A DNA stretch of 64,000 nt from the NCBI GenBank assembly GCA_026125895.1, contig JAHCKG010000005.1:62001-126000 (forward strand), given 5' to 3'. Below, piece after piece: positions 7,406-42,723 of the stretch (position 1 is its first letter; the number at the start of each line of letters is the position of its first letter). Both the position numbers and the translations under genes were made by a program. The notes below the pieces were generated by a model. That model ran no database searches, was not told the DNA's origin, and saw nothing but the letters and a program-made list of their open reading frames with translations. The DNA is from Pseudolabrys sp. (GTDB lineage Bacteria; Pseudomonadota; Alphaproteobacteria; Rhizobiales; Xanthobacteraceae).

Positions 7406-8740
7406 ATGCAGACCAACTTCTCGCTGGCCCAGCTCGCCAATCCGCAGATCGCGGAGGCCGACCAGATCCTGCGCGCCTGCGTGCATTGCGGCTTCTGCAC
7501 CGCGACCTGCCCGACTTACGTGCTGCTCGGCGACGAGCTCGACAGCCCGCGCGGCCGTATCTACCTGATCAAGGAGATGCTGGAGAACGACCGGCCTGCC
7601 GACCGCGAGACCGTCAAGCACATCGACCGCTGCCTGTCCTGCCTGTCCTGCATGACGACCTGCCCGTCGGGCGTGCACTACATGCACCTGGTCGATCATG
7701 CCCGCGACCACATTGAGAAGACCTACAAGCGGCCGCTGCCGGACCGGGCCATCCGGGCCATGCTGGCGCGGGTGCTGACTGACCAGAGCCTGTTCCGTCT
7801 CGCAGTGGTTGGCGGCAAGCTCGCCCGGCCATTCGCGGCGGTTTTCTCTGCGCTCGGCCTGTCGCGGCTGGCGGCCATGGTGCGGCTGACGCCGGTGACC
7901 TCGCCGGCGCCGCCGTCCGACCGCGCCCGCAAGGTCTATCCGGCGCAAGGCGAGCGGCGCGGCCGCGTGGCGCTGCTCGGCGGCTGCATCAATCCGGTGC
8001 TCAGCCCGTCCACCAACGAGGCCGCCATCCGCACCCTCAACCGCCACGGCGTTGAGGTGGTGATCGCCGAAGGCGAAGGCTGCTGCGGCTCGCTGACCCA
8101 CCACATGGGCCGCGAGGAACAGGCTTTCGCGCAGGCGCGGGGCACCATCGATGCGTGGATACGGGAGATCGAGCGCGAGCCGCTCGACGCCATTCTGGTC
8201 ACCGTGTCGGGCTGCGGCACCACGATCAAAGACTACGGCCACATGTTCCAGGGCGATGCGGCCTACGCCGACAAGGCCAGGCGCGTCTCAACATTGGCCA
8301 AGGACGTCAGCGAATACCTCGCTACGCTCGGCCTTGTGGCCAACGCGACGGCGCAGCCGCTCAACGTCGCCTATCACGCCGCGTGTTCGTTGCAGCACGG
8401 CCAGAAGGTAGTGCATGCGCCGAAAGATTTGCTTTCCAAGTTGGGGTTTGTCGTCAAAGATATTGGCGAGGGGCATTTGTGTTGCGGCTCAGCGGGCACC
8501 TACAACATTCTTCAGCCGGCCATCGCGGCGCGGCTGCGGGACCGCAAGGTTGCCAATATCGAACAGCTCCAGCCGGATGTGATCGCGGCCGGTAATATCG
8601 GCTGCATGACTCAGATCGCTTCCGGAACGTCGATACCGGTCGTCCACACGGTCGAGCTGATCGATTGGGCGACCGGCGGCCCGGTGCCGGAGCCGCTCGC
8701 CCGACAAGGTCTCAGCCTTGACGAAGCCAGCGCCGGCTAG
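7406..8740 (+). CDS. glcF: Glycolate oxidase iron-sulfur subunit GlcF
   Basis: 444 residues. Two ferredoxin-type 4Fe-4S sites lie near the N-terminus: CVHCGFCTATCP and CLSCLSCMTTCP. Two CCG domains follow, with GGCINPVL/EGCCGSL and HAACSLQHGQ/LCCGSAG, as in GlcF and heterodisulfide-reductase-like subunits. It passes electrons from GlcD/GlcE to the quinone pool at the membrane. The start at 7406 (MQTNFSLAQL) matches the family N-terminus; an in-frame TTG at 7334 adds 24 unconserved residues. It follows thiM by about 80 bases. Confidence 0.95.
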   Translation: MQTNFSLAQLANPQIAEADQILRACVHCGFCTATCPTYVLLGDELDSPRGRIYLIKEMLENDRPADRETVKHIDRCLSCLSCMTTCPSGVHYMHLVDHARDHIEKTYKRPLPDRAIRAMLARVLTDQSLFRLAVVGGKLARPFAAVFSALGLSRLAAMVRLTPVTSPAPPSDRARKVYPAQGERRGRVALLGGCINPVLSPSTNEAAIRTLNRHGVEVVIAEGEGCCGSLTHHMGREEQAFAQARGTIDAWIREIEREPLDAILVTVSGCGTTIKDYGHMFQGDAAYADKARRVSTLAKDVSEYLATLGLVANATAQPLNVAYHAACSLQHGQKVVHAPKDLLSKLGFVVKDIGEGHLCCGSAGTYNILQPAIAARLRDRKVANIEQLQPDVIAAGNIGCMTQIASGTSIPVVHTVELIDWATGGPVPEPLARQGLSLDEASAG

Positions 8741-8852: not shown

Positions 8853-9086
8853 ATGGCGAAGAAGCGGAAGAAGGCTGCAAAGACGTCGAAGAAGAAAGCC
8901 AAGAAGGCTGCACCGGCCAAGAAAAAGGGCATGGTGAAGACCAAGAAGAAGGCCGCGAAGAAGGCGGCGAAGCCGGCCAAGAAGGCGGCGCCCAGGAAGA
9001 AGGCGGCCCCCAAGCCGGCGGCGCCCGCGCCGATGGCCCCGGCGCCGGCCGCGCCGAGCATGGGCGGCATGGGCGACGGACAATAA
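8853..9086 (+). CDS. Lysine/alanine-rich histone H1-like small protein
   Basis: 77 residues. The N-terminal two-thirds is almost entirely Lys and Ala in KKAAK/AKKAA repeats, like the C-terminal tail of histone H1 and bacterial H1-like proteins. The rest is Pro/Ala-rich and ends in a Gly/Met-rich stretch (SMGGMGDGQ). There is no signal peptide or membrane segment. GGAGG at 8842-8846 lies 6 bases before the ATG, supporting translation. The composition predicts a disordered, strongly basic protein that binds DNA or RNA. It is a single-gene unit between glcF and the hydroxylase. Confidence 0.75.
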   Translation: MAKKRKKAAKTSKKKAKKAAPAKKKGMVKTKKKAAKKAAKPAKKAAPRKKAAPKPAAPAPMAPAPAAPSMGGMGDGQ

Positions 9087-25521: not shown

Positions 25522-26715
25522 ATGATTTCTTCTAGTAACTTCCTCTCAGGCCCCTGGCGTGCCGTGCCGGTTCTCGGCGTCACGCAGATCCTCGCCTGGG
25601 GCGGCATCTACTACACGCCCGTGCTGATCGTGCCGCTGATCGCCCGCGAGCACGGCTGGTCGATGTCGTTCGCCATGGGCGGCTTCTCGTTCGCGCTGCT
25701 CGCGGCCGGACTGGCCGCGCCCTATGTCGGCCGCTCCATCGACCGCTATGGCGGCCATGTCGTCATGACGATCGGCTCGCTCCTCGGGGCGCTTGGCCTC
25801 GTGCTCATCACCGTCGCCGACAACCGCATCGCCTATGTCGCGGTGTGGATCCTGCTCGGCATTGCTCTGTCGGCAAGCCTGTACGATGCCGCCTTCGCTT
25901 CGCTCGGCCGCATCTTCAGCGCCGCGGCGCGCCGGCCGATCACGGCGCTGACGCTCGCCGGCGGGTTTGCTTCCACGGTCGGCTGGCCAGCGACGCATTT
26001 CCTGAGCGAGGCGGTCGGCTGGCGCGGCACATATCTGATCTATGCCGGGCTGCTGCTCGTCGTCGCCGCACCGCTGCACGCCTTCCTGCTGCCGCGCGAG
26101 CGCGTCGAGTTCAGTCCGCCGACGCCGCAGCCCGGCGCCAAGGCGCCCGACCGCGTGCTGCCGGCGCGTGGCCTGCCGTTCCTTCTGGTGGCGGGCGGCT
26201 TTGCCATTTACGCCTTCGTGCCGTCGGGCCTGGCCGCGCATCTCCTGGCGATCTTCACGCGCGCCGGCATCGACGGCGACACCGTGGTGATGATCGGCGC
26301 GCTGTTCGGTCCGGCGCAAGTCGGCGCGCGAGTCATCGAATTCGCCTTCGGCCGCAACATGCATCCGCTGTGGATCGCGCGCATTGCGCTCACCGCGCTG
26401 CTCGCCGGCTTCGTCATGGTCGGCGTCTTCGGCATCGCGACGCCGGTCGCCGCCGCCTTCGCCATCATCTTCGGCGGCGCCAATGGTCTCATCACCATCG
26501 CGCGCGGCGCGGTGCCGCTCGCGCTGTTCGGCGCGGCCGGCTACGGGCGGCTGATGGGGCGGCTCGCCTTCCCGTTCCTGATGGTGCAGGCGGCCGCGCC
26601 TCTAGTGATGGCGATGGTCGTCGATCGCGCGTCCGACGCCGCCGCGCTGGCAATGGCCTCGGCCTTCGCCGCCATCGGGCTCATCTGCTTCGTCGTGATC
26701 CGGCGGCCGCGCTGA
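25522..26715 (+). CDS. MFS transporter
   Basis: 397 residues with 12 predicted membrane helices. RSIDRYGGHVVMTIG is the loop 2-3 region typical of the major facilitator superfamily (G-x3-D-R-x-G). SLGRIFSAAARRPITALTLAGGFASTVGWP and GGANGLITIARGAVPLALFG are conserved in the oxalate/formate-like and CynX-like MFS group. The substrate is unknown. The start ATG is directly after a palindromic repeat. Confidence 0.85.
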   Translation: MISSSNFLSGPWRAVPVLGVTQILAWGGIYYTPVLIVPLIAREHGWSMSFAMGGFSFALLAAGLAAPYVGRSIDRYGGHVVMTIGSLLGALGLVLITVADNRIAYVAVWILLGIALSASLYDAAFASLGRIFSAAARRPITALTLAGGFASTVGWPATHFLSEAVGWRGTYLIYAGLLLVVAAPLHAFLLPRERVEFSPPTPQPGAKAPDRVLPARGLPFLLVAGGFAIYAFVPSGLAAHLLAIFTRAGIDGDTVVMIGALFGPAQVGARVIEFAFGRNMHPLWIARIALTALLAGFVMVGVFGIATPVAAAFAIIFGGANGLITIARGAVPLALFGAAGYGRLMGRLAFPFLMVQAAAPLVMAMVVDRASDAAALAMASAFAAIGLICFVVIRRPR

Positions 26716-33628: not shown

Positions 33629-33809
33629 CGCGGTCGGCGTAAGACAGGGCGAAGGTGGCGTTCTCCTCGCCGAGCACGACGGCGGGCGAGTTCCTGTTGC
33701 GCAAGCGCGATCGCTGTATTCGACTTTCGCATGACGTCGAGACAGAATGCGGTGCACGATCGGTCCGATTTGTGAATCGGGCCGTTTCGCATCCGAGAGG
33801 GACACCGCC

Positions 33810-35090
33810 ATGGCCGCGCCGCGCGCCTCCAAGACCAAGATCGGCAATCACGTGCTCAAGCCCGAGACCCTGATGCTCGGCTATGGGTACGATCCCATGC
33901 TGTCGGAAGGGGCGGTGAAGCCGCCGGTGTTCCTGACCTCGACCTTCGTGTTCGGCACCGCGGAAGAAGGGCGCGATTTCTTCGACTATGTGTCTGGGCG
34001 CAAGACGCCGCCGGCCGGTACCGGCGCGGGCCTCGTCTATTCGCGCTTCAACCATCCAAACAGCGAGATCGTCGAGGATCGTCTTGCCGTTTATGAGGGC
34101 GCCGAGTCCGCCATCCTGTTCTCGTCGGGCATGTCGGCGATTTCGACGTCGCTGATGGCCTATGCGCGCCCCGGCGACGTCATCGTGCATTCGCAGCCGC
34201 TCTATGGCGGCACCGAGACCTTGCTGAGCAGGACCTTCGCCCAGTTCGGCATCAAGTCGGTGCCGTTCGCCGACGGCGTCAGCGAAACCGCCATTCGCGC
34301 GGCGCTCGCCGAAGCGCAGAAGCTCGGCCGCGTCGCCGTGGTGCTGATTGAGACGCCGTCCAATCCGACCAACACTTTGGTCGATATCGCGCTGGTGCGC
34401 CGGCTCGCCGACGAGATCGGCAAGGCGCAAGGCCACCGGCCGATCATCGCCTGCGACAATACCTTGCTCGGGCCGGTGTTTCAGCGGCCGCTGGAATTCG
34501 GCGCCGACCTGTCGCTCTATTCGCTGACCAAATATGTCGGCGGCCATTCCGACCTCATCGCCGGCGCGGCGCTCGGCAGCAAGGCGGTCATCGGGCCGGT
34601 GAAGGCGTTGCGCAGCGCCATCGGCACGCAGCTCGATCCGCATTCGTGCTGGATGCTCGGCCGTTCTCTCGAGACGCTGGCGTTGCGAATGGAAAAGTCC
34701 AACGCCAATGCCAAGGTCGTCGCCGAATTCCTGCGCGATCATCCACGCGTCGGCAAGGTGCATTACTTGCCGTTCCTCGGTGAGGGCGCAGCGCGCGACA
34801 CCTATGAGCGGCAATGCAGCGGCGCGGGCTCGACCTTCTCCTTCGACATCAAGGGCGGGCAGGCGGAGGCTTTCGCCTTCCTCAACGCGCTGCAAGTGTT
34901 CAAGCTCGCCGTCAGCCTGGGCGGCACCGAGTCGCTCGCCAGTCATCCGGCGGCGATGACGCATTCCGGCGTGCCGGCCGATGTGCGCGCCCGCATCGGC
35001 GTCCTCGACACCACGATCCGCCTGTCGGTCGGCATCGAGCATCCGGACGATCTCGTCGCCGACATCGCCCAGGCGCTGGCGCAAGGCTGA
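33810..35090 (+). CDS. Cys/Met metabolism PLP enzyme (cystathionine gamma-synthase / methionine gamma-lyase family)
   Basis: 426 residues, fold-type [52 protein letters not shown] and the PLP-lysine region [11 protein letters not shown] are family hallmarks, and [17 protein letters not shown] is the C-terminal signature. The insertion [19 protein letters not shown] is characteristic of a subgroup often annotated as cystathionine gamma-synthase-like. Synthase versus lyase activity cannot be told apart. ATG at 33810 follows GAGAGGG. Confidence 0.85.
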
Positions 35091-35179
35091 GCACAGCCGC
35101 GATAGCGCGCTTGTGTGTTGAGGAGCCGATGCTAAGCTTCCCCCAATTTCCGGCGTAACGGAACAATATGGGGGGAACC

Positions 35180-36157
35180 ATGGCACGCTCCATGACCACG
35201 CTCGCCGCTCTGTTCGCGGCCTATCTGATCGGCACGGCAGCGGCGCCAATGCAAGCCCAGGCGCAGGGTTGCGAGCGCGGTGCGCTCGATGCGGCCTATT
35301 GCGACGCCGACGGCGACATGGTGGCGGACACGCCGACCGATCCGAAGCAGCGCGTCAATCCCTCCGTCCTTGTATTCGCCTACACGCCGGTCGAGGACCC
35401 CGCGGTCTACGGCAAGGTCTGGGACGGCTTCATCAAGCACATGGAGAAGACGACCGGAAAGAAGGTCGTGTTCTTCCCGGTGCAGTCGAACGCCGCCGAG
35501 ATCGAGGCGATGCGCTCCGGCCGTCTGCACGTCGCCGGCTTCAATACCGGCTCCAATCCGATCGCGGTGAACTGCGCCGGCTTCGTGCCCTTCGCCATCA
35601 TGGGCGGCAAGAACGGCGAATTCGGCTACGAAATGGAAATCATCGTACCGGCCGACAGCGCAGTCAAATCGCCGGCCGATCTGAAGGGCAAGAAGATCGC
35701 CTTTACCGAACCGACCTCAAACTCCGGCTTCAAGGCGCCGTCGGCGATCCTGAAGGCGGACTTCAACCTCGAGAAGGATCGGGACTACACCGCCGTGTTC
35801 TCCGGCAAGCACGACAATTCGGTGATCGGCGTCGCCAACAAGGATTATGAAGCCGCCGCCATCGCCAACGAGGTGATGTTCCGCATGTTTGCCCGTAACG
35901 TGGTGGACAAGGCGAAGATCCGCACCATCTACAAGTCGGACACGTTCCCGACCACCGGCTACGGCGTCGCGCACAATCTCGATCCGGCGCTGACCGAGAA
36001 GATCAAGCAGGCCTTCTTCACTTTCCCGTGGGAAGGCTCGGCGCTCAAGGCCGAGTTCAAGCAGCAGGATCGCTTCGTGCCGATCACCTACAAGAAGGAC
36101 TGGAACGTCATTCGCAAGATCGATGCGGCCAATGGCGTGAAGTATTCGTGCAAGTAG
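35180..36157 (+). CDS. phnD: Phosphonate/phosphite ABC transporter substrate-binding protein PhnD
   Basis: 325 residues. A signal peptide (cleavage near AQAQG) is followed by the PhnD-type periplasmic fold: [59 protein letters not shown]. It binds phosphonates or phosphite. An unusual Cys/Asp-rich insert ([20 protein letters not shown]) follows the signal peptide and looks like a Ca2+-binding-like loop. ATG at 35180 has GGGGGAACC directly upstream; ATG at 35168 is an alternative. It is the first gene of phnD-phnC-phnE-phnE. Confidence 0.9.
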
Positions 36158-36171
36158 CCCCGTCCGGGCCC

Positions 36172-37023
36172 ATGCTGCGCATCCGCGGACTGACCAAGCG
36201 CTATCGCACCGGCGATCTGGCGCTCGACAAGATCGATCTCGACGTCGCGCAAGGCGAGGTCGTCGCGCTGATCGGCCCGTCCGGCGCCGGCAAGTCGACG
36301 TTGATCCGCTGCATCAACCGGCTGGTCGAGCCGACCGCCGGCACGATCGCGCTCAAGGACGTCGAGCTCACCACCTTGGGCAAGGGCGCGCTGCGGCGGG
36401 CGCGGCGCAAGCTCGGCATGATCTTCCAGGAATACGCGCTGGTCGAGCGGCTGTCGGTGATGGAGAACGTGCTCAGCGGCCGGCTCGGCTATGTCGGCTT
36501 CTGGCGCAGCTATCTGCGCCGCTTTCCGCAGGCCGACATCGACGAAGCGTTCCGGCTGTTGTCGCGCGTCGGTCTCGATCACATGGTGGACAAGCGCGCT
36601 GACGCGCTGTCGGGCGGGCAGCGCCAGCGCGTCGGCATCTGCCGCGCGCTGATCCAGAACCCCGATCTGCTGCTGGTCGATGAGCCGACGGCCTCGCTCG
36701 ATCCGAAGACGTCGCGGCAGATCATGCGGCTGATCACCGAACTCTGCCGCGAGCGCAACCTGTCGGCCATCGTCAACATCCACGACGTCCAGCTCGCGCA
36801 GATGTTCGCCTCGCGCATCGTCGGCCTGCGCCAGGGCAAGATCGTCTATGACGGCCCGCCGGACGGCCTGACCTCGGAAGTCCTCACACGGATCTACGGC
36901 GAGGAGGACTGGTCGGCGACGGTGCAGCAGGGGCAGGACGCCGACGACGACGAGGCGGCGCCACCGCTCGCCGGGCTCGAGCCGGGCCCGCTCGACCGCG
37001 GCCGCCTCGCGGGGCTGACGTGA
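36172..37023 (+). CDS. phnC: Phosphonate ABC transporter ATP-binding protein PhnC
   Basis: 283 residues. Walker [21 protein letters not shown], signature [17 protein letters not shown] and Walker [14 protein letters not shown] are intact, and [22 protein letters not shown] is typical of PhnC. It energises uptake through the two PhnE permeases. ATG at 36172 follows phnD by 14 bases. An acidic, Pro-rich C-terminal tail is longer than usual. phnE1 starts 1 base after the stop. Confidence 0.93.
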
Positions 37024-37024
37024 C

Positions 37025-37840
37025 ATGAGCCTCGCCGGCACCGCGCCTGCCGTCCCGCGCGTCTGGCGCAAGCCGCCGCTGATCAAGAGCCCGGCGCTGC
37101 GCTGGAGCATCGCGCTCGGCGCGGCGCTTTATCTCGCCGCCGCCTTCGGCACCACCGAGGTGAATTGGGGCCGCGTCTGGGAAGGCTTGCCGCGCGGCGC
37201 GCGGTTCTTCGCCGCGTTCTTTCCGCCGGACTTCACCACGCGCTCGTCGGAAATCTTCGACGGTATTCTCGAGAGCATCTGGATGACATTGGTCGCCACG
37301 GCGATCGGCATCGTGCTGTCGATCCCGGTTGGCCTCGGCGCCGCCAGGAACGTCGCGCCGGCACCGGTCTATTATGTCTGCCGCGGCTTCCTCGCCGTGT
37401 CGCGCAGCTTCCAGGAGATCATTCTGGCGATCTTCTTCGTCAAATTGTTCGGCTTCGGCCCGTTCGCCGGCGTCGTGACGCTCGCCTTCGCCACCATCGG
37501 CTTCTACGGCAAGCTGCTCGCCGAAGACATCGAGGACATGGACCCGAGCCAGGCCGAGGCCGTGCGCGCCACCGGCGCGAGCTGGCTGCAATGGATCAAT
37601 TTCGGCATCCAGCCGCAGGTCCTGCCGCGCATGCTCGGCCTCGCGCTGTACCGCGTCGACATCAATTTCCGCGAGTCGGCGGTGGTCGGCATCGTCGGCG
37701 CCGGCGGCATCGGCGCCACGCTCGACACCGCGTTCAACCGCTACGAGTTCGATTCCGCCGCCGCCATTCTGCTGGTCATCATCGGCATCGTGATGCTGAT
37801 GGAATATCTCTCCGGCTATATCCGGCGCTGGGTGCAGTGA
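37025..37840 (+). CDS. phnE: Phosphonate ABC transporter permease PhnE (first copy)
   Basis: 271 residues, six membrane segments. SIPVGLGAARNVAPAPVYYV, VSRSFQEIILAIFFVKLFG and the EAA-loop-like DPSQAEAVRATGASWLQWIN are PhnE features. Its last base overlaps the ATG of the next permease (TGATG). The two PhnE proteins presumably form a heterodimeric channel. Confidence 0.92.
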   Translation: MSLAGTAPAVPRVWRKPPLIKSPALRWSIALGAALYLAAAFGTTEVNWGRVWEGLPRGARFFAAFFPPDFTTRSSEIFDGILESIWMTLVATAIGIVLSIPVGLGAARNVAPAPVYYVCRGFLAVSRSFQEIILAIFFVKLFGFGPFAGVVTLAFATIGFYGKLLAEDIEDMDPSQAEAVRATGASWLQWINFGIQPQVLPRMLGLALYRVDINFRESAVVGIVGAGGIGATLDTAFNRYEFDSAAAILLVIIGIVMLMEYLSGYIRRWVQ

Positions 37841-38655
37841 TGGCGGTGGCGATCCGGCAGGGCACCAAGGTCTGGCAGCGGCGCGATCGCGCCGCGCAGT
37901 TCGCGATCTGGGCGGCGTGGCTCGCCGGCGTCGCCGTACTGGTGGTGAGCTGGAGCTTCATCAGCGAAAAGACGATCTGGGCCTTCGTGCTCGACGCGCC
38001 GCAGCAGGCCGCCGATCTCGGCGTGCGCATGGTGCCGCCGGACTGGGGCTTCATCGGCGCGCTATGGCGGCCGATGTGGGACACGATCAATATGGCGACG
38101 CTCGGCACGGTGATGGGCATCGTCATCGCGGTGCCGGTCGCCTTCTGCGCGGCGCGCAACACCACGCCGAGCGCCGCCATCGTTCGGCCGATCGCGATGT
38201 TCATCATCGTCTCGTCGCGGTCGATCAACTCGCTGATCTGGGCGCTGATGCTGGTGACGATCATCGGCCCCGGCGTGCTCGCCGGCATCCTGGCGATCGG
38301 GCTGCGCTCGATCGGCTTCTGCGCCAAGCTGCTGTACGAGGCGATCGAGGAGATCGACGAGTCGCAAGTGGACGCGGTGCGCGCCACCGGCGCGAGTTCG
38401 CCGCAGGTGACGGCCTACGGCATCGTGCCCCAGGTGATGCCGGCCTTCGCCGGCATCTCGGTGTTCCGTTGGGACATCAACATCCGCGAGTCGACCGTGC
38501 TCGGGCTGGTCGGGGCGGGCGGCATCGGCCTGCCGCTGAACTCGGCGATCACGACTTTGGCCTGGACGCAGGTGTCTCTGATCCTGCTGGTGATCATCGC
38601 CAGCGTGGTGCTCAGCGAATGGATCTCGGCCAAGGTGCGCCAGGCGATCATCTGA
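37840..38655 (+). CDS. phnE: Phosphonate ABC transporter permease PhnE (second copy)
   Basis: 271 residues and clearly related to the gene before it: AVPVAFCAARNTTPSAAIVRP, SSRSINSLIWALMLVTIIGPG and DESQVDAVRATGASSPQVTAYG parallel the same positions. ATG at 37840 overlaps the stop of phnE1. It closes the transporter operon; no C-P lyase or phosphonatase gene follows, so the degradation enzymes must lie elsewhere or the ligand may be phosphite. Confidence 0.92.
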   Translation: MAVAIRQGTKVWQRRDRAAQFAIWAAWLAGVAVLVVSWSFISEKTIWAFVLDAPQQAADLGVRMVPPDWGFIGALWRPMWDTINMATLGTVMGIVIAVPVAFCAARNTTPSAAIVRPIAMFIIVSSRSINSLIWALMLVTIIGPGVLAGILAIGLRSIGFCAKLLYEAIEEIDESQVDAVRATGASSPQVTAYGIVPQVMPAFAGISVFRWDINIRESTVLGLVGAGGIGLPLNSAITTLAWTQVSLILLVIIASVVLSEWISAKVRQAII

Positions 38656-38699
38656 GGCGGCCCACCGCCTGCCGCGCCATCCAGCCGGGGCGGGCCTCT

Positions 38700-38723
38700 A
38701 TATTTCGATAATTCTAGAAATAT
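38700..38723. promoter_or_regulatory. Candidate ArsR operator before arsR
   Basis: TTCGATAATTCTAGAA (38704-38719) sits within longer arms ATATTTC / GAAATAT (38700-38706, 38717-38723). The same 16-mer recurs before the flavoprotein gene at 39101-39116. Repetition within 400 bases and palindromic arms indicate the binding site of the adjacent ArsR repressor. Confidence 0.8.
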
Positions 38724-38760
38724 GGTTGACTCGCCGCCGCCCTGCGCCTATCGTCAGGGC

Positions 38761-39084
38761 ATGAAGATCGATGACGCCGCCGCACGCCTCGAAGCCCTCG
38801 GCAATCCGACCCGCCTGCAGATCTACCGCGCCCTGGTACGCGCGGGCGATCCGGGGCTTCCGGTCGGCAAGCTGCAGGCCAAACTGGATATCGCCGCCTC
38901 GACGTTGTCGCATCATCTCAAGACGCTGATGGCGGTCGAACTCATCACCCAGGAGCGGCAAACAACGACGCTGATCTGCCGCGCCAACTACAAGGCCATG
39001 CACGGCCTCATCGGCTTCCTCGCCGACGAATGCTGCGCCGACGCCGGCTGCGCGCCGTCCGCCGCGAAATCCAAGGTCGCCTGA
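38761..39084 (+). CDS. ArsR-family metalloregulator
   Basis: 107 residues. The winged-helix DNA-binding domain covers about residues 15-75, with LDIAASTLSHHLKTLMAVEL as the recognition helix. The C-terminal DECCADAGC places Cys91, Cys92 and Cys97 in a CC-x4-C cluster, close to the As(III) site of Acidithiobacillus-type ArsR (CC-x5-C). ATG at 38761 is chosen; an upstream ATG at 38722 lies inside the operator. It probably represses itself and the downstream flavoprotein/MFS genes and is released by arsenite or another soft metalloid. Confidence 0.88.
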   Translation: MKIDDAAARLEALGNPTRLQIYRALVRAGDPGLPVGKLQAKLDIAASTLSHHLKTLMAVELITQERQTTTLICRANYKAMHGLIGFLADECCADAGCAPSAAKSKVA

Positions 39085-39100
39085 TTTTTTTGCTCGCTAG

Positions 39101-39116
39101 TTCGATAATTCTAGAA
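39101..39116. promoter_or_regulatory. Second ArsR-type operator, before the flavoprotein gene
   Basis: Exact second copy of the 16-mer TTCGATAATTCTAGAA, ending 11 bases before the chosen flavoprotein ATG (39128). It suggests that the flavoprotein-MFS pair has its own ArsR-controlled promoter or that read-through is blocked by bound repressor. Confidence 0.78.
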
Positions 39117-39127
39117 GGATGGATGTC

Positions 39128-40513
39128 ATGGGTACGCAGGGCAAGACGGTCGCCATCATCGGCGCCGGACCGGTCGGTCTCGCGGCGGCGGCGCATGCGC
39201 TGGAGCGCGGGCTGACACCGGTCGTGGTCGAAGCCGGCGTCGAGGCGGGACACGCCGTGCGCCAGTGGGGTCATGTGCGCATGTTCTCGCCCTGGGAATA
39301 CAACATCGACCGTGCCGCCGAGCGACTCCTGAAGGCGGTGGGCTGGAATTCACCCGATCCGCAGCAATATCCGACGGGCGGCGAACTGGCCGAGCGCTAT
39401 CTCGCGCCGCTCGCCGAACGCACCGCGCTCAAGGATCACATCCGCACGGCGAGCCGCGTCACGGCGATCGCCCGCGTCGGCTTCGACAAGGTGAAGACCA
39501 AAGGCCGCGAGCATGCGCCCTTCGAGCTGCGTTATCGGAACGGGGCAGGACAGGGGACGTTGCGCGCCGATTTTGTCATCGACGCCTCGGGTTCGTGGAC
39601 GTCGCCCAATCCGGCCGGCGCCGACGGGCTGACCGCGATCGGCGAAACGGAGGCGCAGGCCCGCATCGCCTATGCCATGCCCGACGTACTCGGACGCGAC
39701 CGAGCGCGCTATGCCGGCCGGAAAGTCGCGGTGCTCGGCAGCGGCCATTCCGCCGTCGGTACGCTGATCGATCTCGTCCGCCTCAAGCAGGACGAACCGG
39801 CGACGCAAGCGATCTGGCTGGTGCGCGGCGACCGGCCCGAAAAGGCCTTCGGTGGCGGCGCCAACGACAAGCTGGCGGCGCGCGGCGAGCTCGGCGCGCG
39901 CCTCGCGCAGCTGGTGGGCGACGGCGCCATCGACGTTCAGGCAAGCTTCCCCGTCACTCACATCGCGTTGCGCGACGACGGCCTGCGCATCGGCGCGGGA
40001 TCGTCCTGCTGCGGCCGCAGCGTCGTGGTCGATGAACTGATCGTGGCGACCGGCTTCCGGCCCGATCTGTCGTTCCTGCGCGAGATGCGGGTGGCGCTCG
40101 ATCCGGCACTCGAATCCGCGCAGGCACTCGGCCCGCTGATCGATCCGAACGAGCACAGTTGCGGCACGGTGCGGCCGCATGGCGCCCGCGAGCTGGCGCA
40201 GCCGGAACCGGGCTTCTACATTGCCGGCATGAAATCGTACGGCCGGGCGCCGACCTTCCTCATGCTCACCGGCTACGAGCAGGTCCGCTCGATTGTCGCC
40301 GATATCGTTGGTGACCGGGCCGGCGCCGAACGCGTCGAACTCGTGCTGCCGGAAACCGGCGTGTGCAGCCTGTCGCCGGTTGCCGGTGAAGCGTCCGGCT
40401 GTTGCGGCGGGCCGGCGAAGGCGGATACTAGCGCCTGCTGCGCCGCCGACGAAACGGCGAAGGCGCAGACCGGCAGCGGCTGCGGCTGCGGCCCGACGGG
40501 ACAGGCCGCGTGA
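39128..40513 (+). CDS. FAD/NAD(P)-dependent flavoprotein with cysteine-rich tail (ArsR-linked)
   Basis: 461 residues. The N-terminal FAD loop is VAIIGAGPVGLAAAAHALERG, and a second nucleotide loop is VAVLGSGHSAVGTLIDL, as in flavin monooxygenases and disulfide reductases. TGFRPDLSFL is the ATG-box near the C-terminus. The last ~50 residues carry clustered cysteines: GVCSLS, SGCCGG, SACCAADE and SGCGCG, plus an internal SSCCGRS. Such a tail can bind thiophilic metals. It lies 44 bases after arsR, behind a copy of the ArsR operator. Oxidation or reduction of an arsenical is inferred. ATG 39119 is an alternative start. Confidence 0.85.
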   Translation: MGTQGKTVAIIGAGPVGLAAAAHALERGLTPVVVEAGVEAGHAVRQWGHVRMFSPWEYNIDRAAERLLKAVGWNSPDPQQYPTGGELAERYLAPLAERTALKDHIRTASRVTAIARVGFDKVKTKGREHAPFELRYRNGAGQGTLRADFVIDASGSWTSPNPAGADGLTAIGETEAQARIAYAMPDVLGRDRARYAGRKVAVLGSGHSAVGTLIDLVRLKQDEPATQAIWLVRGDRPEKAFGGGANDKLAARGELGARLAQLVGDGAIDVQASFPVTHIALRDDGLRIGAGSSCCGRSVVVDELIVATGFRPDLSFLREMRVALDPALESAQALGPLIDPNEHSCGTVRPHGARELAQPEPGFYIAGMKSYGRAPTFLMLTGYEQVRSIVADIVGDRAGAERVELVLPETGVCSLSPVAGEASGCCGGPAKADTSACCAADETAKAQTGSGCGCGPTGQAA

Positions 40514-40538
40514 GCGGGGCGACGGCGGGGGATCGGCC

Positions 40539-41744
40539 ATGCGCCTGACCGGCCGTCCGCTCGTCGTCGCGATGTGTTTCGGCCAGCTCGGCAATCTGCT
40601 GCCGCACGTGGCGGTGCCCGCCGTCATGCCGCAGCACCTGATGCCGTTATGGTCGCTGAGCGGCGCCGAGGCAGGCCTGATGGCGAGCGCCTTTGCCTTC
40701 GGCTACATGCTGGCGGTGCCGGTGCTGACGACGCTGACGGATCGCATCGACGCGCGGCTGATCCTGCTCGTCGGTTCGGCGGCGACGGCGCTGGCCACTC
40801 TGGCCTTCGGCCTGTTCGCGCGCGGCCTGTGGTCGGCGTCGCTGATTTGGGGCCTCGCCGGCATCGGCTTTGCCGGCGCCTACATGCCCGGCCTCAAGGC
40901 GCTGACGGACCGCCTGCCGCCCGGCGACGTGTCGCGCAGCGTCACGCTCTACACGTCGAGCTTTTCATTCGGCGTCGGCCTGTCCTTTCTGGTCGCGCAA
41001 CTGGCGGCAGAATGGCTCGGCTGGCGCGCCGCCTTCTTCATCACGGGGCTCGGCCCCTTCGCCATGGTGGCGGCGTGCCTGGCCATGGGGTCGGTGAAGC
41101 CCCTGCCGGTGCAGCGGCGGCTGTTCGATTTCGGTCCGGTCCTGCGCAACCGCACCGCCATGGGCTATGTGCTCGGCTACGGCGCGCATTGTTTCGAGCT
41201 CTATGGCATCCGCACCTGGCTGGTGGCGTTCTGGAGCTTTGTCGTCATGCACAACGGCGGCGCGGCCGTGCTCGGTCCCGTGGCCGTGAGCGTCCTGTTC
41301 TCGCTCCTGGCGATGCCGGCGAGCATCCTCGGCAACGAATGGGCGCTGCGTTTCGGCCGCCACCGCGCACTGACCGTGTTGATGATCGCCTCGGCAGTGA
41401 TTGCGCTCACGATCGGCCTGTCGGCCGGCGCCCCGCCGCTGCTGCTGCTTCTTCTGCTTCTGCTGTACGCATTTTCGGTGCCCTCCGACTCCGGCACGCT
41501 GACTTCCGGCATGACGATGAGCGCCGCGCCCTCGCACAAAGGCGCGACCATGGCGATGCACACCACGGTCGGCTTCGGCCTCTCGGCGTTCGGAGCTTGG
41601 GGCGCGGGCGTGACGCTGGATCTGGCCGGCGGACCAGAAAGTACTTCCGGGTGGCTCGCCGTGTTCGTGCTGCTTGCCGGCTCGATCCTGCTCGGACCGC
41701 TGGCGCTGTGGTGGTCGCGCCGCGGTGGCGAAGAGACCGTCTAA
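40539..41744 (+). CDS. MFS transporter linked to the ArsR/flavoprotein module
   Basis: 401 residues with 12 hydrophobic segments. TDRIDARLILLVGSAATAL is the loop 2-3 motif, and a very Leu-rich helix (SAGAPPLLLLLLLLLYAF) is present. SVTLYTSSFSFGVGLSF and GMTMSAAPSHKGATMAMHTTVGFG are conserved-looking stretches. It starts 26 bases after the flavoprotein stop, so they are probably co-transcribed. An export role for the flavoprotein product or substrate is inferred from context. GGGGGAT precedes the ATG. Confidence 0.85.
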   Translation: MRLTGRPLVVAMCFGQLGNLLPHVAVPAVMPQHLMPLWSLSGAEAGLMASAFAFGYMLAVPVLTTLTDRIDARLILLVGSAATALATLAFGLFARGLWSASLIWGLAGIGFAGAYMPGLKALTDRLPPGDVSRSVTLYTSSFSFGVGLSFLVAQLAAEWLGWRAAFFITGLGPFAMVAACLAMGSVKPLPVQRRLFDFGPVLRNRTAMGYVLGYGAHCFELYGIRTWLVAFWSFVVMHNGGAAVLGPVAVSVLFSLLAMPASILGNEWALRFGRHRALTVLMIASAVIALTIGLSAGAPPLLLLLLLLLYAFSVPSDSGTLTSGMTMSAAPSHKGATMAMHTTVGFGLSAFGAWGAGVTLDLAGGPESTSGWLAVFVLLAGSILLGPLALWWSRRGGEETV

Positions 41745-41751
41745 ACGCCGC

Positions 41752-42723
41752 TTACAGCGCCGCTTCCAGCCTGGCGTAGAGCGGATTGTCCTTGGAGAAC
41801 ACGTAATCGAGGTCGGCGACTGCGACCGCTTCGGCGCCGCGCTCACGCAGGAACGACGTCAGCGCGTAGACTTGCGCCGGCGGGCAGTGCAGCGTCAGCA
41901 TGCCCGACGAGGTCGGGCCGCCGAACGGCGTTTCGACGCCGAACTTCGCTTTCGCGTCATCGACCACCTTGCCGTCGCAGGCGGCAAAGCGCGAGCGCAC
42001 CTCGCGGAAGGCACGGGCGCGGGCCTGCGCGGCGATGCGATCGAGGATGACGCGCGCGGTCTCGCGCTGCTCGGCCGTCCACTCCGCCTTGCGCGCGGCG
42101 ACGAGATTGGCCTGCGAGCGCAGGATGATGCCGTCGTCGATGATCTTCAGCGCGTTGGCGGCCAAAGTCGCGCCGGTCGTGGTGATGTCGACGATCATCT
42201 CGGCGGTGCCGGCGGCGGGCGCGCCTTCGGTGGCGCCGGCGCTCTCGACGATGCGATAGTCGATGACGCCATGCCGGGCAAAGAACTCGCGCGTCAGGTT
42301 GATGTACTTGGTTGCGACGCGCATCTTGCGGCCGTGATGCTGGCGGAAGCCGGTGGCGACGTCGTCGATGTCGGCCATGGTGCGCACGTCGATCCAGGCC
42401 TGCGGCACCGCGACGATGACATTGGCCGAGCCGAAGCCGAGCGGCTCGATGAGCACGACGCGGTCGTCGGCGTCGGCGATCTGTTCGCGGATCAGATCTT
42501 CGCCGGTGACGCCCATATGCACGGAGCCGGCGGCGAGTTGCGCGGTGATTTCGCTGGCCGACAGATAAGCGACCTCGACGCCGTCGAGGCCGGCGACGGC
42601 GCCGCGATAGTCGCGGGCGCCGCGCGGCTTGACGAGTTGCAGGCCAGAGCGCGCGAAGAACGCTTCGGCGTTTTCCTGGAGCCGGCCCTTGGCGGGCACG
42701 GCGAGAACGAGCGGCGCGCTCAT
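41752..42723 (-). CDS. hisG: ATP phosphoribosyltransferase HisG
   Basis: 323 residues. First enzyme of histidine biosynthesis (PRPP + ATP to PR-ATP). [44 protein letters not shown] and [18 protein letters not shown] (PRPP loop) are visible. The C-terminal ~60 residues ([20 protein letters not shown]) look like the ACT-type regulatory domain, which short HisZ-dependent HisG proteins lack. The start overlaps the hisZ stop by 4 bases (ATGA), so the pair is translationally coupled. Confidence 0.95.

Follow-up and report, generated by a model that had tools for sequence, protein, structure and literature searches.

An arsenic-linked ArsR-flavoprotein-MFS gene module with a divergent transporter in Pseudolabrys sp.

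Gene content and predicted control sites

The 64,000-nucleotide stretch of Pseudolabrys sp. DNA analysed here (contig JAHCKG010000005.1, positions 62,001 to 126,000; the window, whose own numbering is used below) contains three co-oriented genes on the + strand, which extend from 38761, or 38722, to 41744. The first encodes an ArsR-type repressor (38761–39084, within a longest open reading frame (ORF) of 38722–39084). The second encodes a FAD/NAD(P) flavoprotein of 464 residues with a Cys-rich C-terminal tail (39119–40513, with ATG 39128 as a possible start), and the third a 401-residue transporter of the major facilitator superfamily (MFS) at 40539–41744, which is termed B type and is not ArsK-like. 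The ORFs are separated by 34 bp between arsR and the flavoprotein gene and by 25 bp between the flavoprotein and MFS genes. This succession of genes, reported in an earlier note made from the DNA letters alone, is confirmed by the ORFs, the family scores, the operator pattern and the recurrence of the ArsR-flavoprotein pair in relatives. The three genes constitute a real, conserved and arsenic-linked module. It is ordinary in kind, and the exchange of its exporter makes this variant worth testing.

The ArsR protein scores 62.3 bits against HTH_metalloreg (curated cut-off 55), as expected of an ArsR/SmtB metalloregulator. Its best solved-structure relative, 6j05, was deposited as transcriptional regulator ArsR. 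The flavoprotein scores 64.2 bits against Pyr_redox_3 (cut-off 30) and the transporter 91.5 bits against MFS_1 (PF07690; gathering score 33.4). NCBIfam and Pfam gave no clear match to a characterised non-metalloid family. The cysteines of ArsR, counted from the ORF start at 38722, are highly conserved among 103 sequences that include the one from the window: C86 in 101, C104 and C105 in 102 each, and C110 in 84.

Two predicted operators accompany the genes. Operator 1 (38701–38722, + strand), 5' of arsR, is a perfect inverted repeat, TATTTC-N10-GAAATA. It lies immediately 5' of a promoter-like site, TTGACT-17-TATCGT (38726–38754, + strand), the sole one found within 38640–41800. Operator 2 (39098–39119, + strand) is an exact copy of the 16-base core and occupies the gap directly before the flavoprotein gene. 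At up to three mismatches the operator pattern matches only these two places in the 64 kb, and none of 100 shuffles gave a match. The sites were also sought, as the 16-base core with up to four mismatches, in the 97 relatives with sufficient DNA in which ArsR immediately precedes the flavoprotein. Such a site lies before arsR in 88 of these and the flavoprotein gene in 85, and 79 carry both; the controls yielded 0.011 matches per 580 bp of shuffled sequence and a single match in 95 loci for a stretch inside the flavoprotein gene.

The start of arsR at ATG 38761 is favoured over 38722 because the promoter-like site occupies 38726–38754. Judged from the sequence, arsR is probably translated from this ATG, which lies only 6 bases after the −10 box, and its mRNA is perhaps leaderless. 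An ATG follows a TTGAC-like box at like spacing in 87 of the 97 relatives, a count made with the −10 box left free and no control run.

Arsenic-linked neighbourhoods and the flavoprotein

The search for conserved ArsR-flavoprotein-MFS neighbourhoods proposed in the earlier note was productive. When species genomes were scanned for proteins closely related to the flavoprotein, 299 stretches were confirmed, the best 80 of which are the basis of all counts out of 80 given here. Among the rows analysed overall, one copy of the window (L001) and one row without a flavoprotein ORF (L105) were dropped. ArsR is encoded directly upstream of the flavoprotein in 76/80 loci and an MFS protein downstream in 68/80. 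The downstream MFS is ArsK-like only in 17 loci, like that of the window only in 20 and of both types in 31, so that a B-type MFS stands beside the flavoprotein in 51/80; eight loci have none and in four the contig ends. A classical arsenic gene (encoding Acr3, ArsC, ArsJ, ArsH, AioA or AioB) is found near the flavoprotein in 63/80 loci, within up to 8 kb on each side and often less. On plasmids, a flavoprotein homologue occurs in 133 of 72,556 records. Fifteen of these regions were compared; in 11 of them, from Pseudomonadota, Actinomycetota and Bacillota, arsC, acr3, arsB, arsH, arsJ or aio genes lie near the flavoprotein gene, and an MFS gene follows downstream in 12. The module is thus no orphan but one of a widespread group of clusters linked to arsenic. 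An arsN1-type N-acetyltransferase gene, annotated by NCBI for arsinothricin resistance, was observed directly 5' of the flavoprotein gene on a Pseudomonas plasmid and, on a Cytobacillus plasmid, 3' of the MFS gene (L109, L111).

The same neighbourhoods bear on the metal to which the module would respond. Some plasmid copies lie near merA or chromate genes, as might be expected if the ligand were another soft metal or metalloid (e.g. Hg, Au, Te or Se) and not arsenic or antimony, but one of these copies also lies near classical ars genes. Such a response is very improbable, given the arsenic genes near most copies and the deposition of the closest solved ArsR relative as transcriptional regulator ArsR.

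The earlier note stressed the absence of classical ars genes. For the window this stands: tblastn at E 1e-5 found no Acr3 (one query), ArsC (two types), ArsH, ArsJ or its GAPDH, AioA, AioB, MIP channel or ArsO, with ArsB not among the queries, and the ArsM model had no match above its cut-off in the whole assembly. As a distinguishing trait it does not stand, since acr3 is present on another contig (C50) of the same genome in an arsR-arsC-acr3 operon, and many relatives of the module lie inside ars islands. The lack of classical genes near the module is a local accident. A match to the ArsC model (G000:C6) has no ars neighbour by the markers used. The ArsH model did not pass its cut-off in this genome either; with ArsM and ArsH both below their cut-offs in an assembly that is 82% complete, methylated arsenicals, if they are the substrate, would therefore come from neighbours.

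It appears reasonably probable that the three genes form a self-contained ars module, in which ArsR is released by a trivalent metalloid, the flavoprotein oxidises the metalloid and the MFS protein exports the product. ArsR would bind the two operators and thereby repress arsR as well as the flavoprotein and MFS genes, the last two presumably being co-transcribed. Release would follow when a trivalent metalloid that binds thiols, be it As(III), Sb(III) or an organoarsenical (e.g. methylarsenite), occupies the cysteines of ArsR. In the flavoprotein, C348, C416 and the Cys-rich tail would grip the trivalent species, and the enzyme, using NAD(P)H, FAD and O2, would oxidise it to a less toxic pentavalent form, which the MFS protein would export. 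The earlier suggestion of metalloid redox conversion followed by export is thus supported by context as to the type of regulator, the redox enzyme and the transporter (conserved ArsR cysteines; ars or aio genes at most loci), whereas the ligand, the redox direction, and the substrate and direction of transport are parts that we infer.

The cysteines assigned this role are strongly conserved. In 115 flavoproteins, the window's included and sequences of 400 residues or less left out, C348 and C416 are invariant (115/115), and the tail cysteines C428, C429 and C440 are found in 113, 113 and 112, respectively. Exactly seven cysteines fall within the last 60 residues in 91/115. The tail includes CC pairs. 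The model of the flavoprotein, based on an alignment from which three rows (L008, L047 and L075) were dropped owing to stops in the coordinates used, has a mean pLDDT of 70.5. It is confident mainly in two nucleotide-binding domains; residues 325–361 and 411–445 fall below 50 and the Cys tail is unresolved in the model. The nearest folds to the prediction are those of YpdA, DiatB, flavin monooxygenases (FMOs) and N-hydroxylase flavoproteins. Class B FMOs carry the fingerprint FxGxxxHxxx(Y/F/W). FMOs are among the nearest folds even though the flavoprotein has no match to this motif.

Among solved structures, the bacillithiol disulphide reductases Bdr/YpdA match the fold best. Together with the CC pairs of the tail and the missing FMO fingerprint, this would suit a reductase or thiol-recycling enzyme that reduces a pentavalent organoarsenical or a metalloid-thiol adduct, with the MFS protein exporting the trivalent species. 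However, no CxxC or CxxxxC redox pair occurs across the 464 residues of the flavoprotein, and it is therefore not an enzyme of the thioredoxin-reductase or MerA type. Moreover, arsC is already present in 57/80 loci and acr3 in 27/80. A reductive role is thus rather unlikely.

Oxidation followed by export has a precedent in the ArsV/ArsW methylarsenite pathway (Chen et al. 2021, doi 10.1111/1462-2920.15817; Zhang et al. 2022, doi 10.1111/1462-2920.15488; as cited in PMC10080717, PMC9144182 and PMC11719878), in which a flavin monooxygenase oxidises a trivalent arsenical or Sb(III) before an exporter acts, the same logic as proposed here. In the account given in the review PMC10080717, the oxidation of methylarsenite is assigned to ArsV and the extrusion of methylarsenate to ArsW. 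The words 'widely present in soil bacteria' in a title would agree with the distribution found here, and the likeness to the module proteins is one of described roles. ArsO of Streptomyces FR-008 is likewise an arsenic-linked FAD/NAD(P) flavoprotein, but the window flavoprotein reaches only 43.9 bits against the ArsO model (NF040505; cut-off 425), about a tenth of the cut-off, and only over residues 11–223. In the FR-008 plasmid island (L005, 5175–9314), genes for ArsO and for another ArsO-like protein accompany one for a homologue of the window flavoprotein, and because both kinds occur there the two names are not interchangeable. Among the plasmid records listed, annotations of the family are mostly 'FAD-dependent oxidoreductase' or 'NAD(P)-binding domain-containing protein'. 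Because the enzyme is so generically annotated, what would be a recurrent As/Sb detoxification route in three phyla is easily missed by surveys for arsC, acr3, arsM or arsH.

The B-type transporter and its coupling to the flavoprotein

The earlier note held that known analogues differ in gene make-up. This does not hold for the architecture: Ensifer and Rhizobium plasmids carry ArsR-flavoprotein-ArsK modules with the same gene order and ArsR type and a flavoprotein about 48–52% identical, followed by an MFS protein named ArsK by NCBI. It does hold for the exporter. BLAST aligned the module MFS to the NCBI-named ArsK proteins either not at all or over 13 residues. The profile models of the B-type and ArsK-like proteins cross-match weakly (hhalign 97%), a kinship at the level of the MFS superfamily only. 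Eleven of the 12 plasmid MFS partners of the flavoprotein are ArsK-like, and nine ArsK-like plasmid partners align mutually at 28–59% identity, whereas the module MFS aligns only trivially to them; the partner on a Cytobacillus plasmid is a third, unrelated MFS. ArsJ with its GAPDH likewise couples an MFS exporter to an arsenical-changing enzyme, but ArsJ and the module MFS share only a 29-residue, 18-bit alignment and the ArsJ-type GAPDH was not found in the window by tblastn. By its sequence, then, the exporter is the module's main oddity, a member of an MFS subfamily other than that of the pump in many relatives. The model of the module MFS (pLDDT 91.7) has the MFS fold, with SPNS2, G6PT1, MdfA, sialin and the E. 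coli galactonate symporter as its nearest structures. A supposed tendency of the B type to keep more charged residues than the ArsK-like proteins was dropped, as a matched-diversity ArsK-like subset of 46 sequences keeps them too.

An ArsK-like MFS is also encoded in the window, 13 kb upstream of the module and outside it (25522–26715), with 33% identity to Ensifer ArsK and up to 42% to flavoprotein-linked partner MFS proteins. It was rejected as the module's missing partner. It occurs in 41 of 43 genomes of the genus, compared with 12/43 for the flavoprotein, and therefore appears to be a core gene rather than a component of the module; the scan of the 64 kb placed no operator copy near it. 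The ArsK-like proteins thus include stand-alone members.

The coupling of the B-type MFS to the flavoprotein was assessed by co-occurrence. Of 398 genomes of the phylum, 18 encode the flavoprotein and 14 the B-type MFS; both occur in eight and form one cluster in 8/8 (p about 8e-9, a value that overstates independence because six of the eight genomes belong to one genus and one is the window's own; few candidates were scored per genome). Of 100 genomes of the family, 20 encode the flavoprotein, 19 the B-type MFS and eight both (p 0.012), clustered in 7/8. These associations argue against an exporter of general type, for organic anions or drugs, whose gene was captured downstream of the flavoprotein gene without functional coupling to it. 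In support of such an exporter, B-type genes stand alone in several genomes, and one genome of the genus (G100) carries the arsR-flavoprotein pair alone. In addition, the label 'next to the flavoprotein' requires five gains or losses on a tree of 64 B-type rows, from which L144, L147, the second copy of L006 and other duplicated rows were excluded. Four of these changes are forced by well-supported branches, and the changes may be losses. The rows nearest to the window MFS are L006, with the order arsR-flavoprotein-arsC-MIP-MFS, and G055, in which an ArsR lies immediately before the MFS and a flavoprotein was not found. On balance, an uncoupled exporter is unlikely.

Several observations weigh against the oxidation-and-export pathway proposed above. 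Seventeen of the 80 loci have no classical ars gene in the stretch examined, and the same is true of four of the 15 plasmid regions (Hydrogenophaga, Staphylococcus, Rhodococcus and Roseomonas). Only 8/15 plasmid copies have ArsR immediately before the flavoprotein; in others the neighbour is MarR, PadR, arsN1, arsC or a divergent ArsR. B-type MFS genes occur without an ars marker in the stretch read (L140–L142, L144–L147, L149 and L205–L207). The missing FMO fingerprint and the G100 pair without an MFS gene also belong here. In Achromobacter As-55, according to the relevant passages of PMC11719878, one island carries aio, arsROC-mfs-arsH and pst operons that are reported as upregulated under Sb(III), a point in favour of the pathway. 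Yet the island with arsROC-mfs-arsH is lost in a strain of higher Sb(III) resistance, and these genes are regarded by the authors as not necessary for Sb(III) detoxification. They name arsV apart from arsROC-mfs-arsH, and their 'arsO' may or may not be of the window flavoprotein family. These data caution against taking the window enzyme to be ArsV, or the module to be one for resistance to Sb(III).

Within the oxidation-and-export pathway, it is tentatively suggested, at somewhat less than even chance, that the B-type MFS belongs to an additional class of exporters for arsenicals, which differs in sequence from both ArsK and ArsJ and was recruited more than once to the ArsR-flavoprotein pair. 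In the 31 loci where it stands in tandem with an ArsK-like pump, the two would divide the task, one exporting the trivalent substrate and its partner the anionic product of the oxidation. Modules with ArsK-like only, B type only or both occur naturally and allow a direct test of such a trivalent/pentavalent split between exporters. The B-type MFS could still prove to be ArsW. In the openly licensed literature no paper on this flavoprotein with a B-type MFS was recognised, which says little about print since the key ArsV, ArsW and ArsK papers lie outside it.

Position of the module beside hisG

Upstream of the module lie a gene of the cystathionine gamma-synthase family (33747–35090) and a phosphate/phosphite/phosphonate-type ABC transporter (35168–38655) with a substrate-binding protein, PhnC and two PhnE; the substrate-binding protein scores below the cut-off of the PhnD equivalog model. 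Downstream lie hisG and hisZ, convergent with the module. A link between the module and the phnDCEE-type transporter was considered and rejected: phnD or phnE occurs in only one of the 80 loci (L042), and in two genomes of the same genus (G034 and G070) phnDCEE abuts hisG with nothing between and no ars module. In G100, arsR and the flavoprotein gene (93 and 92% identical to those of the window) are flanked by a cystathionine gamma-synthase-like gene on one side and hisG on the other, with no phn genes between. Within the genus, phnE2 is present in 16/43 genomes. The simplest reading is that the module was inserted next to hisG, its linkage to phn being incidental. In the single exceptional locus, a Bradyrhizobium ars island (L042, 2611–6069), phnC-, phnD- and two phnE-like genes separate arsJ from the arsR-flavoprotein pair.

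A further genome of the genus (G105) carries a different insert at the same site. This insert, with a 342-residue ORF, lies between phnE2 and hisG on contig C1 (L179). It is flanked by a 160-bp direct repeat (7474–7633 and 8858–9017), 90% identical, which duplicates the 3' end of hisG. The 3' side of hisG appears to be a hot spot for insertions in the genus.

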